Positions 7,537 to 15,036 of a stretch of DNA of 27,306 nucleotides are shown here, in pieces (position 1 is the first letter of the stretch; every line of letters starts with the position of its first letter). The position numbers and the translations under genes were made by a program. Below the pieces are notes generated by a model, which was given only the letters and a program-made list of their open reading frames with translations, was not told where the DNA came from and did not search any database. This stretch comes from a virus. The DNA lies in IMG/VR virus record IMGVR_UViG_3300050011_000184, positions 1-27,306 of that record. One strand, 5' to 3'.

Positions 7537-7745
7537 CATGGCCTCCAGGTGTTGAGGACGGTTTCTTCTTCGGTGGGCGTCGCGTGATCCAATGCTTCAA
7601 GCATGTCACCGTTGAATACCTCGGCTCGGATGAAAGCCACCATGCTATCAGGAAGTATGATCACCGTTGCGTCAAAGGTCGTGCTGATCACCTGTCGCCT
7701 CTGGGAGATGTAGAAGACGTAAGATGGATCTTCATTCTTCATCAT
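7536..7745 (-). CDS. Small protein, unknown function
   Basis: This 69-residue protein is not recognised. The middle segment (QVISTTFDATVIILPDS) is beta-like and hydrophobic but too short and mixed to call a membrane helix. The C-terminus is acidic. Three successive possible starts (GTG 7748, ATG 7745, ATG 7742) follow the upstream stop, with TGATG coupling at 7745 and no good ribosome-binding site. Translation is therefore probably by reinitiation from the repeat-protein gene. Confidence 0.6.
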   Translation of the reverse strand: MMKNEDPSYVFYISQRRQVISTTFDATVIILPDSMVAFIRAEVFNGDMLEALDHATPTEEETVLNTWRP

Positions 7746-9100
7746 CACACCAACGTGATGAAGCCGTATTCAACGGCCATCTTGACGTGGGTAGCATTGA
7801 CGGACATCTTCTCACCGTCCTGGCGCTTGACTTTCTTGGACAGCGCCTCATCAACGGTGGCGCAGGCCATGACGGCCTTCATGAGTGCCATGCGCACGGT
7901 GCCTTCGCGCACGAGGCTGAGGTCTGCCTTCACATTGACCTTGATCTTCTTGCTCGTGAGTTCAGCACTTCTGACTCCCACGCGACGATCAGACTCACCG
8001 GTTCGATGTCCGGCGGACTCGGCTTTGACAGTCTTCTTGACGGTAGCCTTGGGCATGGTCTTCGCAGTGGTCTTAGGCGCCGCCTTCGTGGCAGCGGTGG
8101 CGGTCTTCGTGGCAGGCTTGGTAGTAGACACGGTGGTCTCCTTTTCATCGGTGGAGGTATGGGGTTTAGGGTCCTCTCCTGCGAGAGTCTTGCCGATCTT
8201 CAGGTCAGAGTTGACTGGCGCGGCGATTACGACTGCGGTGGCCAACGGCAGTTCGGAGTTGGGGACCTTGACTTCCTTCTTAGTGCCGGTGCTGACGAGG
8301 TGTTTGAGCGTCACGGTAGGCTTCTTGGCTGGCTCCTTCTTGGCTGGCTCCTTCTTGGCTGGCTCCTTCTTGGCTGGCTCCTTCTTGGCTGGCTCCTTCT
8401 TGGCTGGCTCCTTCTTGGCTGGCTCCTTCTTGGCTGGCTCCTTCTTAGCTGGCTCCTTCTTGGCTGGCTCCTTCTTGGCTGGCTCCTTCTTGGCTGGCTC
8501 CTTCTTAGCTGGTTCCTTCTTGGCTGGTTCCTTCTTGGCTGGTTCCTTCTTGGCTGGTTCCTTCTTGGCCTTGTCCGCTTCCTGGTTCTTCTTGATGACT
8601 TCGGTAGCTTTGGCAGCTTTCTCCGCGTCTGCCTGAGCAGTAGGACCTGGGGTGACCCCTGGCAGGGATGACTTCTTTGTCTCCGCGGCGGTCGCCTTGG
8701 CGGCGTCAGCGATCGGCGTATCGGTCTTCTTCGTTGTCTTCTTAGTCACCTCCGTCTTAGCTGGTGCGGTTTTGGCAGTGTCCATGTCCTGAGTCTCCTG
8801 GTTAAGAATATCGGCGACAGCGTGCCGAGCCGCGGGGGTGATCATCACCCCTAACGATGAAAGTCCCATCCACTTTTCTGTGATGCCCTTGAGCGAAGTA
8901 GTGTTAACTTCAAGCTTGTAGGTGTTGTTGAATTTGTCGGTAGGGAGCTGATGAACGTCTACCGCCCGCTTGCCCTTGACTTTACTGTCGCTGATGCCAA
9001 GGAAAACCGTTTTGTTACCAATGTCACGGATACGAATGCAGGCATGGCGATTGGCGTCGAAATAGAGAGCTGGCTTGACGACGGAATCAGTATCTGACAT
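7745..9100 (-). CDS. Lysine/alanine-rich protein with 16 tandem EPAKK repeats
   Basis: This 451-residue protein has an N-terminal globular part (about 1-105), a Lys/Ala/Thr/Pro-rich linker, 16 perfect pentapeptide units EPAKK at residues 181-260, a second Lys/Thr/Ala-rich linker, and a conserved-looking C-terminal part from about 385 to the end. The repeat resembles the tails of histone-H1-like and AlgP-like bacterial proteins. Such tails bind nucleic acid through lysines and stay extended because of proline. A DNA- or RNA-condensing or scaffolding role is therefore possible but not shown. The ATG has AGGAGG about 8 bases upstream and overlaps the DUF6165 gene by 14 bases. The N- and C-terminal parts are not recognised. 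Confidence 0.8.
   Translation of the reverse strand: MSDTDSVVKPALYFDANRHACIRIRDIGNKTVFLGISDSKVKGKRAVDVHQLPTDKFNNTYKLEVNTTSLKGITEKWMGLSSLGVMITPAARHAVADILNQETQDMDTAKTAPAKTEVTKKTTKKTDTPIADAAKATAAETKKSSLPGVTPGPTAQADAEKAAKATEVIKKNQEADKAKKEPAKKEPAKKEPAKKEPAKKEPAKKEPAKKEPAKKEPAKKEPAKKEPAKKEPAKKEPAKKEPAKKEPAKKEPAKKEPAKKPTVTLKHLVSTGTKKEVKVPNSELPLATAVVIAAPVNSDLKIGKTLAGEDPKPHTSTDEKETTVSTTKPATKTATAATKAAPKTTAKTMPKATVKKTVKAESAGHRTGESDRRVGVRSAELTSKKIKVNVKADLSLVREGTVRMALMKAVMACATVDEALSKKVKRQDGEKMSVNATHVKMAVEYGFITLV
8321..8560 (-). repeat. Tandem repeat, 16 units of 15 bases inside the EPAKK gene
   Basis: Sixteen contiguous 15-base units of the plus-strand form CTTCTTGGCTGGCTC fill this interval, followed by a partial copy. 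Units are nearly identical at DNA level, with only TTAGC and GGTTC variants. This indicates recent expansion by slippage or recombination rather than old protein-level conservation. The unit length keeps the reading frame, so copy number can change without breaking the gene. Confidence 0.97.
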
Positions 9101-9757: not shown

Positions 9758-10747
9758 TCACCTCTTCGCCAGCACGAGGGCCAGCTCCAATGCTTTGGAC
9801 TTCAACTTAGCTGCCTGGCCGAAGAGGATCGAGTTGGTTCGATCCACCTGGCCAGCAGCGTTCTTGGCATTACGAACAATGCTATGCCAATCCTGATACT
9901 CACCAAAGGCATTCAGCAGACCGTAGACGGTGCCAACCACGCCCTTGATCTCGGTGCCGTGACCGGTGACCATCAACTGCTCAAACTTCTCCAGCTTCTT
10001 CTTGAGGATGGTCTGACTGGTTCCCCCCTCCGTCTTGGTGAGATCACCAAACATCTCGATCTCGAACTCACGAACGAGAGTGTCGGTGATGGGGTGCTTG
10101 GCCAAGTAGATCATGGCTTCACGGAAGGTCTTGCTCGCTCGCACGTAGCCTTTGTAGATCTCGGCAGCAAGCGAGGCTCGCTGGTGCATGTTCGCGGTGT
10201 GCTTGATCTTCACCACGGCGGGGTTACCGGAAGTGGCGGCGTCTAACGTGTTCTGGCAGACTACCCGGATGTCCGTGTTGCGTCCTTCCAAGGCGGAAGA
10301 GAAGTCGTAGCTGTTGGTGACGAGCGTGTAGGTGCGATGCTCATCACCCTTGACTGGTTCCCAGCGGTGATCAGGCGCATGGCAGAGAAACCAGATCTTC
10401 TCGCCATCACCGAGGGCGCCGGCCGTTTCGCAGGTCATGCCTTCATCACTCAGCGCCTCGATGAACTTCGCGCAGTCTTCAGGCTGGTAGATGGAGCAGG
10501 TAGCACCACCGATGTTCATGATCTTTCTGGTATCACTGATGACGATGGCCACGTGCGTGGTGATCTCGGAACCATCAACCCGGAACAGCTTCTCCTTATA
10601 GTAGTGAAAGGGAAAGACGCTCTTGGCAACTTCCACCGTCATAGGCCCCGTGACCGGCGTCCCACCGCCCCACCAGGGTCGGCCACCCTGCTCGTTGTAG
10701 ATCATGGCCACACGGCCGTCGGCATTCTGCTTGATGTTAGCGGTCAT
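9758..10747 (-). CDS. DUF932 phage/plasmid-like protein
   Basis: This 329-residue protein fits the DUF932 family (phage/plasmid-like protein, TIGR03299 type). It has an early EVAKSVFPFHYY segment, a beta-rich middle, the typical RVVCQNTLDAA motif near residue 162, and a helical C-terminal third. The family is widespread on phages and plasmids, with no settled biochemical role. It lies between the pentapeptide-repeat gene, which it overlaps by 11 bases, and the small histidine-rich gene. Family assignment is by pattern and is fairly secure; function is unknown. Confidence 0.85.
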   Translation of the reverse strand: MTANIKQNADGRVAMIYNEQGGRPWWGGGTPVTGPMTVEVAKSVFPFHYYKEKLFRVDGSEITTHVAIVISDTRKIMNIGGATCSIYQPEDCAKFIEALSDEGMTCETAGALGDGEKIWFLCHAPDHRWEPVKGDEHRTYTLVTNSYDFSSALEGRNTDIRVVCQNTLDAATSGNPAVVKIKHTANMHQRASLAAEIYKGYVRASKTFREAMIYLAKHPITDTLVREFEIEMFGDLTKTEGGTSQTILKKKLEKFEQLMVTGHGTEIKGVVGTVYGLLNAFGEYQDWHSIVRNAKNAAGQVDRTNSILFGQAAKLKSKALELALVLAKR

Positions 10748-11306
10748 TAGAGATCTCCTTCTTAAGGCGAAGTTCTGGGGCCTCGGTTTGGATGGTGCGG
10801 AACTCCTCCGCTAGGCGACGAAGCGGTTCCAGCGCGACCACGATCTCGGGGTCCAGATGATCATTGTTGAACACGTGGTAGATGAGCTGCAGGCTAAGGT
10901 GACGATCAAGTTTGACCCGCGTGCCACCACACCAGAGTGGCCAGACAGCAAAGTCCAGGTCGGCCATGCTCAGGTCGGCCCTGCGCAGGTCGGCCATGCT
11001 CAGGTCGGCCCAGCTCAGTTCGGCCCCGCTCAGGTTCGCCCAGCTCAGGTTCGCCCTGCTCAGGTCGGCCCCGCTTAGGTCGGCCCCGCTCAGGTCGGCC
11101 CCGCTTAGGTCGGCCCCGCTCAGGTTCGCGCCGTGCAGGTCCGCGCCGTGCAGGTCCGCGCCGTGCAGGTCCGCGCCACGCAGGTTCGCGCCACCCAGGT
11201 CCGCGCAGTGCAGGTCCGCGCCGCAGAGGTCGGCGTCGCGCAGGTCTGGAAGTAGTCCCTGTTGATGTGCGTTCGCGACGATCTGGAACAGCTCTTCAAT
11301 TTTCAT
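10737..11306 (-). CDS. Pentapeptide-repeat protein
   Basis: Residues 25-119 of this 189-residue protein are 19 consecutive pentapeptide repeats of the A(D/N)LXX type. These fold into a right-handed four-sided beta helix of about five coils. The central Leu and preceding Ala face inward. A short N-terminal helix and a C-terminal domain beginning FAVWPLWCGG and rich in Leu, His and Asp follow. Some family members mimic DNA and inhibit gyrase (MfpA, Qnr); whether this one does is unknown. AGAGGAG lies 8 bases before the ATG. The DNA of the repeats is itself highly repetitive, suggesting recent unit duplication. Confidence 0.93.
   Translation of the reverse strand: MKIEELFQIVANAHQQGLLPDLRDADLCGADLHCADLGGANLRGADLHGADLHGADLHGANLSGADLSGADLSGADLSGADLSRANLSWANLSGAELSWADLSMADLRRADLSMADLDFAVWPLWCGGTRVKLDRHLSLQLIYHVFNNDHLDPEIVVALEPLRRLAEEFRTIQTEAPELRLKKEISNDR
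10950..11234 (-). repeat. 15-base repeats encoding 19 pentapeptide units
   Basis: The interval reads on the plus strand as variants of GCTCAGGTCGGCCCC or CAGGTCCGCGCCGTG. Blocks of near-identical neighbours show local duplications of 15 or 30 bases. The frame is preserved throughout. Confidence 0.9.
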
Positions 11307-11442: not shown

Positions 11443-11448
11443 GTTGCT

Positions 11449-11469
11449 CTCCTTGTGATGGTGGAGGTT
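11449..11469 (-). promoter_or_regulatory. Shared 21-base translation leader, copy 1
   Basis: The plus-strand sequence here, CTCCTTGTGATGGTGGAGGT plus a final T, is identical to 14209-14229. On the RNA it is an unstructured ACC-rich leader ending in CACAAGGAG just before a start codon. The ligase stop codon touches its upstream end. It probably acts as a strong ribosome-binding leader. At this locus no hammerhead precedes it. Confidence 0.7.
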
Positions 11470-12756: not shown

Positions 12757-12924
12757 TTAGTCACCCTCGTGATCGAAGAGGTAGCTGCTGTAGTGCGTGT
12801 TGGTTCCGGTGCTGTGATCCAGCTGGTCGAGGTTCGGCTTGGGCCTAACGTGACCATCATTTGCAGGACCGAGACGGAGCGGTGGGAGCTGGTAGTCACG
12901 ATTATCTTCGGGGTCGATCGGCAT
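12757..12924 (-). CDS. 55-residue protein directly downstream of ribozyme-like leader
   Basis: The reading frame MPIDPEDNRDYQLPPLRLGP... encodes 55 residues, polar and rich in Pro, Asp and His, and ending LFDHEGD. It is supported by a strong AAGGAGG 6 bases before the ATG, and by a fit that leaves 1 base to the following helix-turn-helix gene. It is not recognised and looks largely unstructured. The hammerhead-like element at 12957-13018 is in its 5' leader. Confidence 0.7.
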   Translation of the reverse strand: MPIDPEDNRDYQLPPLRLGPANDGHVRPKPNLDQLDHSTGTNTHYSSYLFDHEGD

Positions 12925-12956
12925 GGTAGCCTCCTTGTGATGTTGGTGGTTTGCCC

Positions 12957-13018
12957 GGGCTCATCAGCGCGAGGGTGGGCGCGTCTCACGGACCGGCCAC
13001 GCGGCCGGTTTTACTTAG
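12957..13018 (-). ncRNA. Degenerate type II hammerhead-ribozyme-like element
   Basis: Read on the minus strand, the element has stem III CCGGCC/GGCCGG (13008-13003 with 12998-12993) closed by GCGU, then U and C at the cleavage position (12992 and 12991). Stem I is CGUGAG/CUCGCG (12990-12985 with 12973-12968) and is followed by the conserved CUGAUGA (12967-12961). The layout matches the two elements near 14.3 kb. However, the core GAAA reads AAAA, so the general base G12 (position 13012) is A, and stem II is poor. It is probably inactive or very slow. The stop codon of the 13015-13275 gene lies inside the stem II segment. Confidence 0.55.
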
Positions 13019-13275
13019 CTGATCTTCTTGACATTTAGCACCCGACTATATTCACCATCACCAGGCGCCCAGTCCTGAGTGACCGGCACCTGTTCCTTCT
13101 CACGCCGTGACTTCGGATCCAGGGCTTTCAAGAAAGCGATGCTAGACCTGATCCGTCCTTCAAGATGGATGACATCAGCTTGGATCATGGCCTTCTCCCA
13201 AACCTTGAGTTTCGGTCGCATGAGCAGCCCTCGTCGAGTGGTAAGCTTGCCCTGCAGATCTTCGATGAAGATCAC
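13015..13275 (-). CDS. Small charged protein, unknown function
   Basis: The 86-residue product (MIFIEDLQGKLTTRRGLLMR...) is basic with an acidic C-terminal part and is not recognised. The central helix around residues 27-52 is amphipathic. Its GTG overlaps the stop of a 15-codon frame upstream as GTGA, which supplies translational coupling in place of a spaced ribosome-binding site. Its UAA lies at the 5' edge of the hammerhead-like element. Confidence 0.65.
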   Translation of the reverse strand: MIFIEDLQGKLTTRRGLLMRPKLKVWEKAMIQADVIHLEGRIRSSIAFLKALDPKSRREKEQVPVTQDWAPGDGEYSRVLNVKKIS

Positions 13276-13495: not shown

Positions 13496-13696
13496 CTACA
13501 CCTCACTCGTTTCTTCAATGTAGGACAGGTGGCCGGTGAGGCGGAAGTGCTCAACCAGTCGCTCGGCGGCCACGGCATCAGTGCTGATGACCCATGATCC
13601 CATCTTGTTACGCTCCTGCCACGTGGTCTTACGACCCAGCAGCTTCTCCGCGAGGTCAATCTTGTCCTGTGACAGATAGAAGATGACGAAGTTCAT
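13496..13696 (-). CDS. 66-residue protein, unknown function
   Basis: The product begins MNFVIFYLSQDKIDLAEKLL and is not recognised. It looks like a small alpha-beta protein. The first strand (NFVIFYL) is followed by a helix and then a WVISTDAVAAERLVEHF segment resembling a second strand plus helix. The ATG at 13696 couples to the previous stop as TGATG with AGGTG upstream; a GTG one codon earlier is possible. Confidence 0.7.
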   Translation of the reverse strand: MNFVIFYLSQDKIDLAEKLLGRKTTWQERNKMGSWVISTDAVAAERLVEHFRLTGHLSYIEETSEV

Positions 13697-14202
13697 CACA
13701 GCACCTCACCAAGTTTCTTGGCGTTGTAGCGAATGAATTTAAGATCGCAACGGTAGAGATTCTTCAAGGCGGACCGCCTCAGGATGGCACAGGCATTGTG
13801 AGCGATGCTCGTGCTGTAAGGTTCGAGGTCCTCGCCCTGCCAGCCGTAGTTGTCGAGGAGAGCGTTCTGAACAGCTGCGTAGATGATCTTGACTGCCTCC
13901 CATGGTGAACCGGCGAATGACTCACCATCAGGTCTGGGCCTGATCAGATTGTCGAAGTATTTGATCACTCCCTCCTTGATCTCCAGCTTAATCATGTCGT
14001 CGAGGTTCCAGCTGATGATGCTAGTGAAGTCGGCGTTGGGGGCGGCTAACTTGGTTGCGAGTTCAAGACGATCTTTGTCGTTATGCTCTCGCATATACTT
14101 GATGTATAAGACCGTTTCCTCGTTGGCTTGCTTGAGCAGCTCGTCGTGGGTGAGGATAGGTTCAGGCGTGGTTGGGACGGCGGTGTGAAGCTTCTTAGCC
14201 AT
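13696..14202 (-). CDS. 168-residue protein led by hammerhead leader, unknown function
   Basis: This mostly helical, unrecognised protein starts MAKKLHTAVPTTPEPILTHD. It is the first gene downstream of the complete hammerhead element at 14233-14299. It has the strongest leader in the region, with CACAAGGAG 6 bases from the ATG. Features include a helical WNLDDMIKLEIKEGVIKYFD segment and a C-terminal helix with AHNACAILRRSALKNLYRC. Cleavage of the ribozyme would leave its mRNA with a defined 5' end about 66 bases before the start codon. Confidence 0.75.
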   Translation of the reverse strand: MAKKLHTAVPTTPEPILTHDELLKQANEETVLYIKYMREHNDKDRLELATKLAAPNADFTSIISWNLDDMIKLEIKEGVIKYFDNLIRPRPDGESFAGSPWEAVKIIYAAVQNALLDNYGWQGEDLEPYSTSIAHNACAILRRSALKNLYRCDLKFIRYNAKKLGEVL

Positions 14203-14208
14203 GGTGAT

Positions 14209-14229
14209 CTCCTTGTGATGGTGGAGGTT
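14209..14229 (-). promoter_or_regulatory. Shared 21-base translation leader, copy 2
   Basis: This is identical to 11449-11469. It lies between the hammerhead element and the ATG at 14202. On the RNA it reads AACCUCCACCAUCACAAGGA and then G. A related sequence without the exact match precedes the ATG at 12924. Confidence 0.7.
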
Positions 14230-14232
14230 GTG

Positions 14233-14299
14233 GGCTGACTCATCAGCGCGGTGCGCCCGTGATCCGCGGACTCCGCCTCGCGGCGGAGTTTCGTCTTAG
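14233..14299 (-). ncRNA. Type II hammerhead ribozyme, complete core (B)
   Basis: On the minus strand the order is as follows. Stem II strand GAC (14295-14293), then GAAA (14292-14289). Stem III CUCCGCC/GGCGGAG (14288-14282 with 14277-14271) is closed by a GCGA tetraloop. U16.1 is at 14270 and C17 at 14269. Stem I CGCGG/CCGCG (14268-14264 with 14251-14247) has a 12-base loop. Then comes CUGAUGA (14246-14240), followed by GUC (14239-14237) pairing with GAC. Every invariant core base is present. Predicted self-cleavage is between 14269 and 14268. Stem II is the open helix, so this is type II, the form known mainly from bacteria, phages and metagenomes. It lies in the leader of the 13696-14202 gene. 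Confidence 0.85.
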
Positions 14300-14313
14300 A
14301 AGAAGCTCATCAT
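14296..14313 (-). CDS. Five-codon micro-ORF between two hammerheads
   Basis: The frame ATG ATG AGC TTC TTC TAA (MMSFF) is preceded by a perfect AAGGAG at 4-base spacing. Its stop codon is within a few bases of the GAAA core of the downstream hammerhead. It could be a translated leader that affects ribozyme folding, or the remnant of a deleted gene. The peptide is unlikely to matter by itself. Confidence 0.35.
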   Translation of the reverse strand: MMSFF

Positions 14314-14343
14314 CTTCTCCTTTTAGTCTTGGAGTTTTGAGGT

Positions 14344-14424
14344 GGCTGACTCATCAGCACCACTACCACCTCGAAGCTGTGGTGGACGCCGTGGCTCATA
14401 ACTTCCACGGCGTTTCGTGCACTC
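14344..14424 (-). ncRNA. Type II hammerhead ribozyme, complete core (C)
   Basis: On the minus strand GAAA (14416-14413) leads into an 8-bp stem III CGCCGUGG/CCACGGCG (14412-14405 with 14394-14387) with a 10-base loop. U16.1 (14386) and C17 (14385) follow. Stem I is CACCAC/GUGGUG (14384-14379 with 14363-14358), then the invariant CUGAUGA (14357-14351). Stem II is the open helix. It starts AC:GU and continues imperfectly with a bulge (GC:GC). All invariant core bases are present. Predicted cleavage is between 14385 and 14384. It sits upstream of the MMSFF micro-ORF and hammerhead B. Confidence 0.8.
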
Positions 14425-15036
14425 ACTGGCCTCGTCTCACGACGAACCCTTATCTATTCTGTTCTGCGTGTGCAACGTGAGTGACTCCAACCACCCTGTC
14501 ACGGCAGTGACTCACGCTTACTGACCCATTCTATCGGTGGTGGCTCTAGGCTCCTCACCGGTGGTCCACTAACGAGCAGCACTGCAACCCACCTGGTTGC
14601 CCTTTGATCTGTTGTTCCTCTCGCTTCGTGTCTGACCAGGCTGGCAAATGTTCAGGATTGTCTCGTCGCTTCCGGTGACTGATTCGCTTCGGAGTTTCCT
14701 CTCACTCATCTTCACCGCGTTCTTCGACTCTTGACTCATCCTGCTTGCGTTTCCCAGGTGCCCCGTGAAGGCTGCCTGCGGTTGGCTACTCACTCCCACC
14801 AGGAGGTGCCGTGTTGCCTGACCCGTGTCATCTACCAGCTACCTGTGACCCGCGTCCTAATCTCAAATAACCCTGACTGATATTACCATATAACGTTGGT
14901 ATCAGACACTCTACGAGCTATTATAACTGAAAATTGTTGTGATATAATGAAAGTTTTTTTGATATGTATATTGCACTAAGCACTCGATGGCCGGCTAGAC
15001 CAGGTCTCTGACTAAGTTTGATTATCATATTGCAGT
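14425..15036. other. Non-coding intergenic stretch, about 0.6 kb
   Basis: No reading frame here has a convincing start. A 76-codon minus-strand frame (14569-14799) lacks a ribosome-binding site. The stretch holds small stem-loops, such as GCAACC/GGTTGC at 14584-14600 and the inverted CGTGAGT/ACTCACG pair near 14476-14516. It ends in an AT-rich part (14870-14975). The latter has ATTATA at 14920-14925 and TATAAT at 14943-14948, good -10 boxes for leftward and rightward promoters respectively, without clear -35 elements. It probably begins the transcript that carries the hammerheads. Confidence 0.5.
14918..14950 (-). promoter_or_regulatory. Possible leftward promoter -10 box
   Basis: On the minus strand TATAAT (14925-14920) lies in an AT-rich segment upstream of the hammerhead-bearing leader. 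No TTGACA-like -35 is found at 16-18 bases, so support is only the consensus -10 and the position. Confidence 0.25.

Follow-up and report, generated by a model that had tools for sequence, protein, structure and literature searches.

Does a hammerhead ribozyme in the replication region of a phage genome serve to cut the messenger on which it is carried? This question is raised by a 27.3-kb virus record from IMG/VR (referred to here, over its full length of 27,306 nucleotides, as the window), in which an earlier note based on sequence inspection described one complete type II hammerhead on the minus strand at 14233-14299. The function of prokaryotic and phage hammerheads has been described as an open question (PMC6155905). 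In this study, the element was analyzed by covariance models and geometric searches, and its placement was compared with that of type II hammerheads in other viral contigs.

Results

Three type II hammerheads on one strand

In a cmscan search of the whole window with all Rfam families, the element (HH1) was recovered as RF02276 (Hammerhead_II) with 40.9 bits (E=2.8e-5), above the gathering score of 37. Re-reading of the sequence bore out the structural description in the earlier note: the invariant core bases GAAA, UC, CUGAUGA and GUC/GAC are present on the minus strand, as are a 7-bp stem III with a GCGA tetraloop (ACUCCGCC/GGCGGAGU; 8 bp if A15.1-U16.1 is counted) and a 5-bp stem I (CGCGG/CCGCG, 14268-14264 / 14251-14247). 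The 5′ side of the minus strand reads UAA-GAC-GAA-A, CUGAUGA is found at 14246-14240, and stem II is formed by GUC (14239-14237) pairing with GAC (14295-14293). Stems I and III are closed by loops and stem II is open. Both figures given for the predicted cleavage, its position between 14269 (C17) and 14268 and its distance of 66 nt from the ATG at 14202, are correct. By the curated threshold of Rfam and by every core base, HH1 is a type II hammerhead. When the core and pairing in stems I and III were required in a strict geometric search, shuffled windows contained 0.03 motifs on average over both strands; the actual window has three on one strand, two of them with a canonical core and the third with a G12A core. 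A chance motif was ruled out because of the Rfam score and these shuffles.

The element is thus real, but it is one of three rather than single, since HH2 and HH3 are located on the same strand (Table 1). The earlier note mentions neither of these two copies, nor the loop-I/tail pseudoknot of HH1 or the mini-ORF. HH2 has all core bases (CUGAUGA, GAAA, GUC) in type II topology, with a stem III of 9 bp, a stem I of 6 bp and a predicted cleavage at 14385/14384. Its score of 30.0 bits does not reach the gathering threshold of 37 (E=0.0016 for a scanned stretch of 2.1 kb, E=5e-6 in a search of its own genome). No gene-length ORF ends at HH2, and an ATG is present downstream. HH3, with a predicted site at 12991/12990, keeps a 7-bp stem III, a 6-bp stem I, GUC and CUGAUGA, but its core reads AAA instead of the required GAA, with an A replacing G12 at 13012. 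G12 is the catalytic general base of the hammerhead. Among the matches listed, the G12 triplet of strict-geometry copies elsewhere was GAA in at least 173 cases and AAA in none, for which reason HH3 is classified as a hammerhead-like, degenerate copy that is probably inactive; with A in place of the catalytic base, it would be a relic or a very slow copy.

Table 1. Features of the hammerhead region of the window
Feature	Position	Strand	Basis or remark
HH1, complete type II hammerhead	14229..14296	-	RF02276 score and geometry
HH2, second complete type II hammerhead	14340..14420	-	RF02276 match at relaxed threshold and geometry
HH3, degenerate type II hammerhead	12954..13012	-	RF02276 21.8 bits at relaxed threshold, E=6.6e-4; sequence; geometry
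HH1 pseudoknot	loop I GGGC 14255..14258, tail GCCC 14232-14235	-	sequence, geometry
HH2 pseudoknot, 7 bp	GAGGTGG 14366-14372 / CCACCTC 14339-14345	-	geometry
HH3 pseudoknot, 4 bp		-	geometry; strands swapped relative to HH1 (GCCC in loop, GGGC in tail)
Mini-ORF, ATG ATG AGC TTC TTC TAA (MMSFF)	14296..14313	-	between HH2 and HH1
168-aa gene downstream of HH1	13696..14202	-	coding-like codon use
55-aa ORF	12757..12924	-	ATG 36 nt downstream of HH3 core
ORF upstream of HH3	13015..13275	-	UAA 13015-13017 ends 2 nt before HH3 position 12
116-nt fragment if HH2 and HH1 both cut	14269..14384	-	predicted cleavage coordinates

Loop-I/tail pseudoknots and folding

In each of the three copies, loop I is complementary to the tail that follows stem II; the stem sequences differ among HH1, HH2 and HH3, yet all pair. 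In one related phage the pseudoknot pair is CGCCCT/AGGGCG. At least five loop-I/tail pairs were counted in 112 of 365 hammerheads listed from viral contigs, compared to about 44 when tails were dealt randomly among the ribozymes; a pseudoknot of four or more pairs is usual in type II, not universal. In the hammerhead of a related phage (L134, G003 45123-45178), the core reads CUGAAGA, loop I is 3 nt long and a pseudoknot is absent. For type II hammerheads, the loop-I/tail contact is required for fast cleavage (PMC3088659).

With pseudoknots not counted, the best nested fold is lower in energy than the active fold for HH1 (-28.9 vs -23.7 kcal/mol) as well as for HH2 (-33.0 vs -20.6 kcal/mol), and self-pairing CUGA...UCAG is possible in the shared tail. 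Such pseudoknot-free nested folding neither shows nor excludes the active fold of the two ribozymes. The 228-nt double leader exceeds all 200 shuffles in stability (z = -4.27).

Genes, leaders and junctions

The leftward genes of the window include those for a primase, a DnaJ-like protein, a DNA ligase, a DNA polymerase A and a helicase, and the terminase is oriented opposite to the replication genes. Elsewhere, the window encodes a protein of 451 aa that contains a long tract of AKKEP repeats and is weakly similar to histone H1-like HC2 (7745-9100) and a pentapeptide-repeat-like protein with runs of ADLSG / ANLSG (10737-11306). The 168-aa gene following HH1 has the Shine-Dalgarno (SD) sequence AAGGAG (14209-14214); its product has no match in Pfam or PHROG and no relative among the viral contigs searched. 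HH1 was said to stand in the 5′ leader of a replication-region gene. It does lie in a 5′ leader within the replication module; since the downstream gene has no family match, this gene is better described as being in the replication region than as a known replication gene.

The mini-ORF, preceded by the SD sequence AAAAGGAG, holds the first start after HH2, and its UAA directly abuts the GAC of HH1 stem II. HH1 is therefore flanked by the stop of the mini-ORF and by an ATG, on the same strand as the genes; HH3 likewise has a stop 2 nt before it and an ATG after its core. The distance from the end of the core to an SD-equipped ATG is 37 nt for HH1, 37 nt for HH2 and 36 nt for HH3. On the minus strand between 12300 and 15500, no sigma-70-like promoter or terminator was found.

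A 21-nt leader, AACCTCCACCATCACAAGGAG, is present in near-identical form at 11445-11469 and 14204-14228, before two unrelated genes. It follows HH1 and, with no hammerhead, the ligase stop codon near 11469, so the presence of a ribozyme is variable at otherwise similar junctions. The tail of HH1 together with the leader has a relative in one contig (L144), where no hammerhead is present. At this leader, CTCC is able to pair with GGAG of the SD sequence.

The roughly 600 nt separating HH2 from the DnaJ-like gene (14424-15036) have an AT-rich start and contain no convincing gene, and 14421-14870 is purine-rich on the transcribed strand (62%, rank 4th of 143 windows). This stretch has no homologue in phages or plasmids, and a 20-mer from it has no match in the viral contigs. 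It also gave no clear coding signal in a test that is weak because two longer neighboring ORFs scored equally low. A large structured ncRNA in this region is not supported, with fold z-scores of just -0.6 to -0.95.

Placement of type II hammerheads in other phages

Viral contigs were scanned with the type II pattern, and placement was measured on 204 dereplicated hammerheads among the matches listed. An SD sequence and start codon 15-60 nt after the core accompany 107 of these 204, compared to 8.9% of random positions, with a sharp mode of the core-to-start distance at 24-31 nt. Upstream, an ORF stop lies 0-9 nt before G12 in 102/204 (control 4.4%). The same stop and start pattern is seen in R4-like Streptomyces phages and in all other contigs listed: outside the R4 group, a start is present in 45 of the 78 hammerheads listed (control 8.1%) and a stop within 15 nt in 61 of 78 (control 11.3%).

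In the R4-like phages, a single early-gene block contains as many as 12 type II hammerheads, and most of the annotated-gene gaps of 70 nt or more hold one. In Streptomyces phage Paedore (L145, MH001460.1 39000-52743), 12 hammerheads were detected, 11 of them above the Rfam gathering score and all 12 located in gaps between leftward genes of the deposited annotation; a scan of this 13.7-kb region revealed no hammerhead on the other strand. The R4-like contigs L117, L027, L037 and L074 likewise contain a hammerhead block. No paper on the hammerhead block of Paedore or the R4-like phages was found in the literature searched.

The order of stop codon, ribozyme and ribosome-binding site is thus a rule for phage type II hammerheads, and the window follows it. 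The earlier note had regarded the position of HH1 as notable; in view of the survey counts, both lineages and Paedore, it is the rule and not an exception. Unusual here are the tandem pair enclosing a five-codon ORF and the degenerate third copy, and no second case of a tandem pair with an ORF this short between its members was found among the viral-contig matches listed.

Back-to-back pairs of a different kind, without an intervening ORF and with cleavage sites separated by 64-70 nt, are formed by type II hammerheads in L007, L022, L027, L031, L051, L068, L074, L080, L083, L087, L103, L108, L117 and L120, Streptomyces phages among them. A double cut in such a pair would give an RNA of about 69 nt.

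Related phages

The primase, polymerase, ligase and helicase of the window match those of Stenotrophomonas phage AXL_3, Pseudoxanthomonas phage PW916 and phage ctUtU524 with identities of about 43-52% and a generally similar gene order. No hammerhead match was obtained in these three genomes, and the ribozymes are therefore not essential to the genome plan. Two contigs with a primase 98-100% identical to that of the window (L123, L124) end short of the hammerhead region. The metagenomic relatives G006 and G008 have one hammerhead each, of the same sequence; a UAG precedes its G12 by 2 nt, and the core is followed 30 nt later by an ATG. This hammerhead comes after a DnaJ-like gene and a further small ORF, comparable to the order of DnaJ-like gene, HH2 and HH1 in the window. 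In G003, a UAA stands shortly before the hammerhead and an ATG 21 nt after its core. The hammerheads of these relatives occupy the same kind of junction as the copies in the window.

Discussion

Intercistronic cutting as the main reading

The reading that we favor, with a probability of about three in four, is that HH1 and HH2 are cis-acting ribozymes cutting the leftward transcript of the replication operon at cistron boundaries. Being located at gene junctions, the hammerheads of the window would probably split one long messenger into separate mRNAs. Core, stems I-III and the loop-I/tail pseudoknot are expected to place the scissile phosphate after C17 in the active site, and from the family we infer self-cutting at 14385/14384 and 14269/14268. 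On the upstream RNA, the stem III hairpin would then be followed by a single terminal base bearing a 2′,3′-cyclic phosphate. The downstream mRNA would carry its 5′-OH on the first nucleotide of the stem I hairpin, and the remainder of its leader (66-71 nt in total) would contain the ribosome-binding site. In this way, translation and decay of the downstream gene may be insulated from upstream sequence. In bacteria, such hairpin ends should resist 5′-end-dependent RNase E and 3′ exonucleases. The new 5′ end would thus be protected from RNase E stimulated by a 5′-monophosphate and the new 3′ end from exonucleases that depend on an unpaired tail. To our knowledge, no permutation other than type II has both of the strands next to the cut closed as hairpins, so that both new ends would carry a hairpin at once; this may be the reason why phages favor the type II form. 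In favor of cutting are the Rfam match of HH1 and the two further copies, the rarity of the geometry in shuffled windows, the unlike stems that all pair and the pseudoknot strands swapped between HH1 and HH3, the near-constant distance to an SD-equipped ATG, the placement in other viral contigs, relatives and Paedore, and the cleavage seen for prophage clusters (PMC3088659). Counting against cutting are the score of HH2 below gathering together with its 2-bp stem II, the nested folds that favor non-active structures, HH3 without G12, and the three related genomes in which no hammerhead match was obtained.

Alternative readings

The hammerheads might instead be relics or spreading cassettes with no present function. 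The missing G12 of HH3, the related complete genomes without hammerheads, and the occurrence of AACCTCCACCATCACAAGGAG at junctions with and without a ribozyme all point in this direction. On the other hand, two of the three copies retain every core base, paired stems and pseudoknots, and the narrow range of distances on either side, shared by phages that are not related, speaks for selection, which makes the passenger explanation unlikely.

A second alternative builds on the mini-ORF, which has a strong SD sequence and a spacing of 37 nt from the HH2 core, as the real genes have, and whose stop codon touches HH1 stem II. Ribosomes translating it would cover the 5′ strand of HH1, which could then fold and cut only if the mini-ORF is untranslated, and since stop codons abutting hammerheads are common in the other phages listed, interference by ribosomes could be general. 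Such a translation-gated switch is nevertheless decidedly unlikely: the matches listed include no other tandem pair around so short an ORF, the mini-ORF may be the remnant of a lost gene, and folding and cutting of a hammerhead can outpace translation of a gene. Its full form, in which HH2, mini-ORF and HH1 together constitute a self-cleaving leader and ribosome occupancy of the mini-ORF decides on HH1 cutting, we regard as highly improbable; if true, it would couple mRNA processing in the replication operon to the cell's translation state.

Least probable of all is the release by HH2 and HH1 of a small RNA with a hairpin at each end, stable or circularized by RtcB, for which the spacing of 116 nt between the predicted sites and the back-to-back pairs of Streptomyces phage relatives could speak, since no conserved sequence is known within the fragment, and circular or spliced products were sought and not seen in comparable clusters (PMC3088659).

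Comparison with known systems

Intercistronic cutting, our preferred reading, resembles in outcome a device of synthetic biology. In the RiboJ insulator, a hammerhead placed between upstream sequence and ribosome-binding site creates a defined 5′ end with a hairpin; RiboJ is an engineered derivative of a satellite-RNA hammerhead belonging to a different type, whereas the elements of the window are natural type II ribozymes. With family RF02276 (Perreault et al. 2011, PMC3088659), HH1 and HH2 share all core bases and the GUC site as well as closed stems I and III, a short open stem II and the loop-I/tail pseudoknot. HH2, with its 10-nt stem III loop and 2-bp stem II, differs in lying under the curated threshold, and HH3 differs in carrying A at position 12.

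In the haloviruses HF1/HF2, a transcript 5′ end was mapped within three nucleotides of the hammerhead cleavage site (PMC3088659). As in the window, this hammerhead (HHphage) lies upstream of the start codon of a gene, in that case an early gene, but it has a variant core, belongs to archaeal viruses and is located 13 nt from the start codon (PMC3088659).

A further parallel is provided by the prophage clusters of A. tumefaciens (a triple set), C. scindens and A. caulinodans, for which cleavage was shown in vitro and, in the case of the A. tumefaciens set, in E. coli as well (PMC3088659). The window likewise has a group of hammerheads within a single phage operon, around small genes of unassigned function. 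It differs in the location of its copies in a replication region, in the distances between them (116 nt and about 1.3 kb), in a tandem pair with nothing but a five-codon ORF inside, and in the degenerate state of one copy. Perreault et al. (2011) proposed that hammerhead clusters cut long phage transcripts into shorter mRNAs (PMC3088659). Clustered phage hammerheads and the idea of polycistronic cutting have thus been in print since 2011, and the window adds another example of RF02276. The fixed frame of stop codon, ribozyme and ribosome-binding site, which spans type II hammerheads of unrelated phages, fits this proposal, and a cultured Streptomyces phage with twelve hammerheads in gene gaps makes the intercistronic-cutting hypothesis directly testable.
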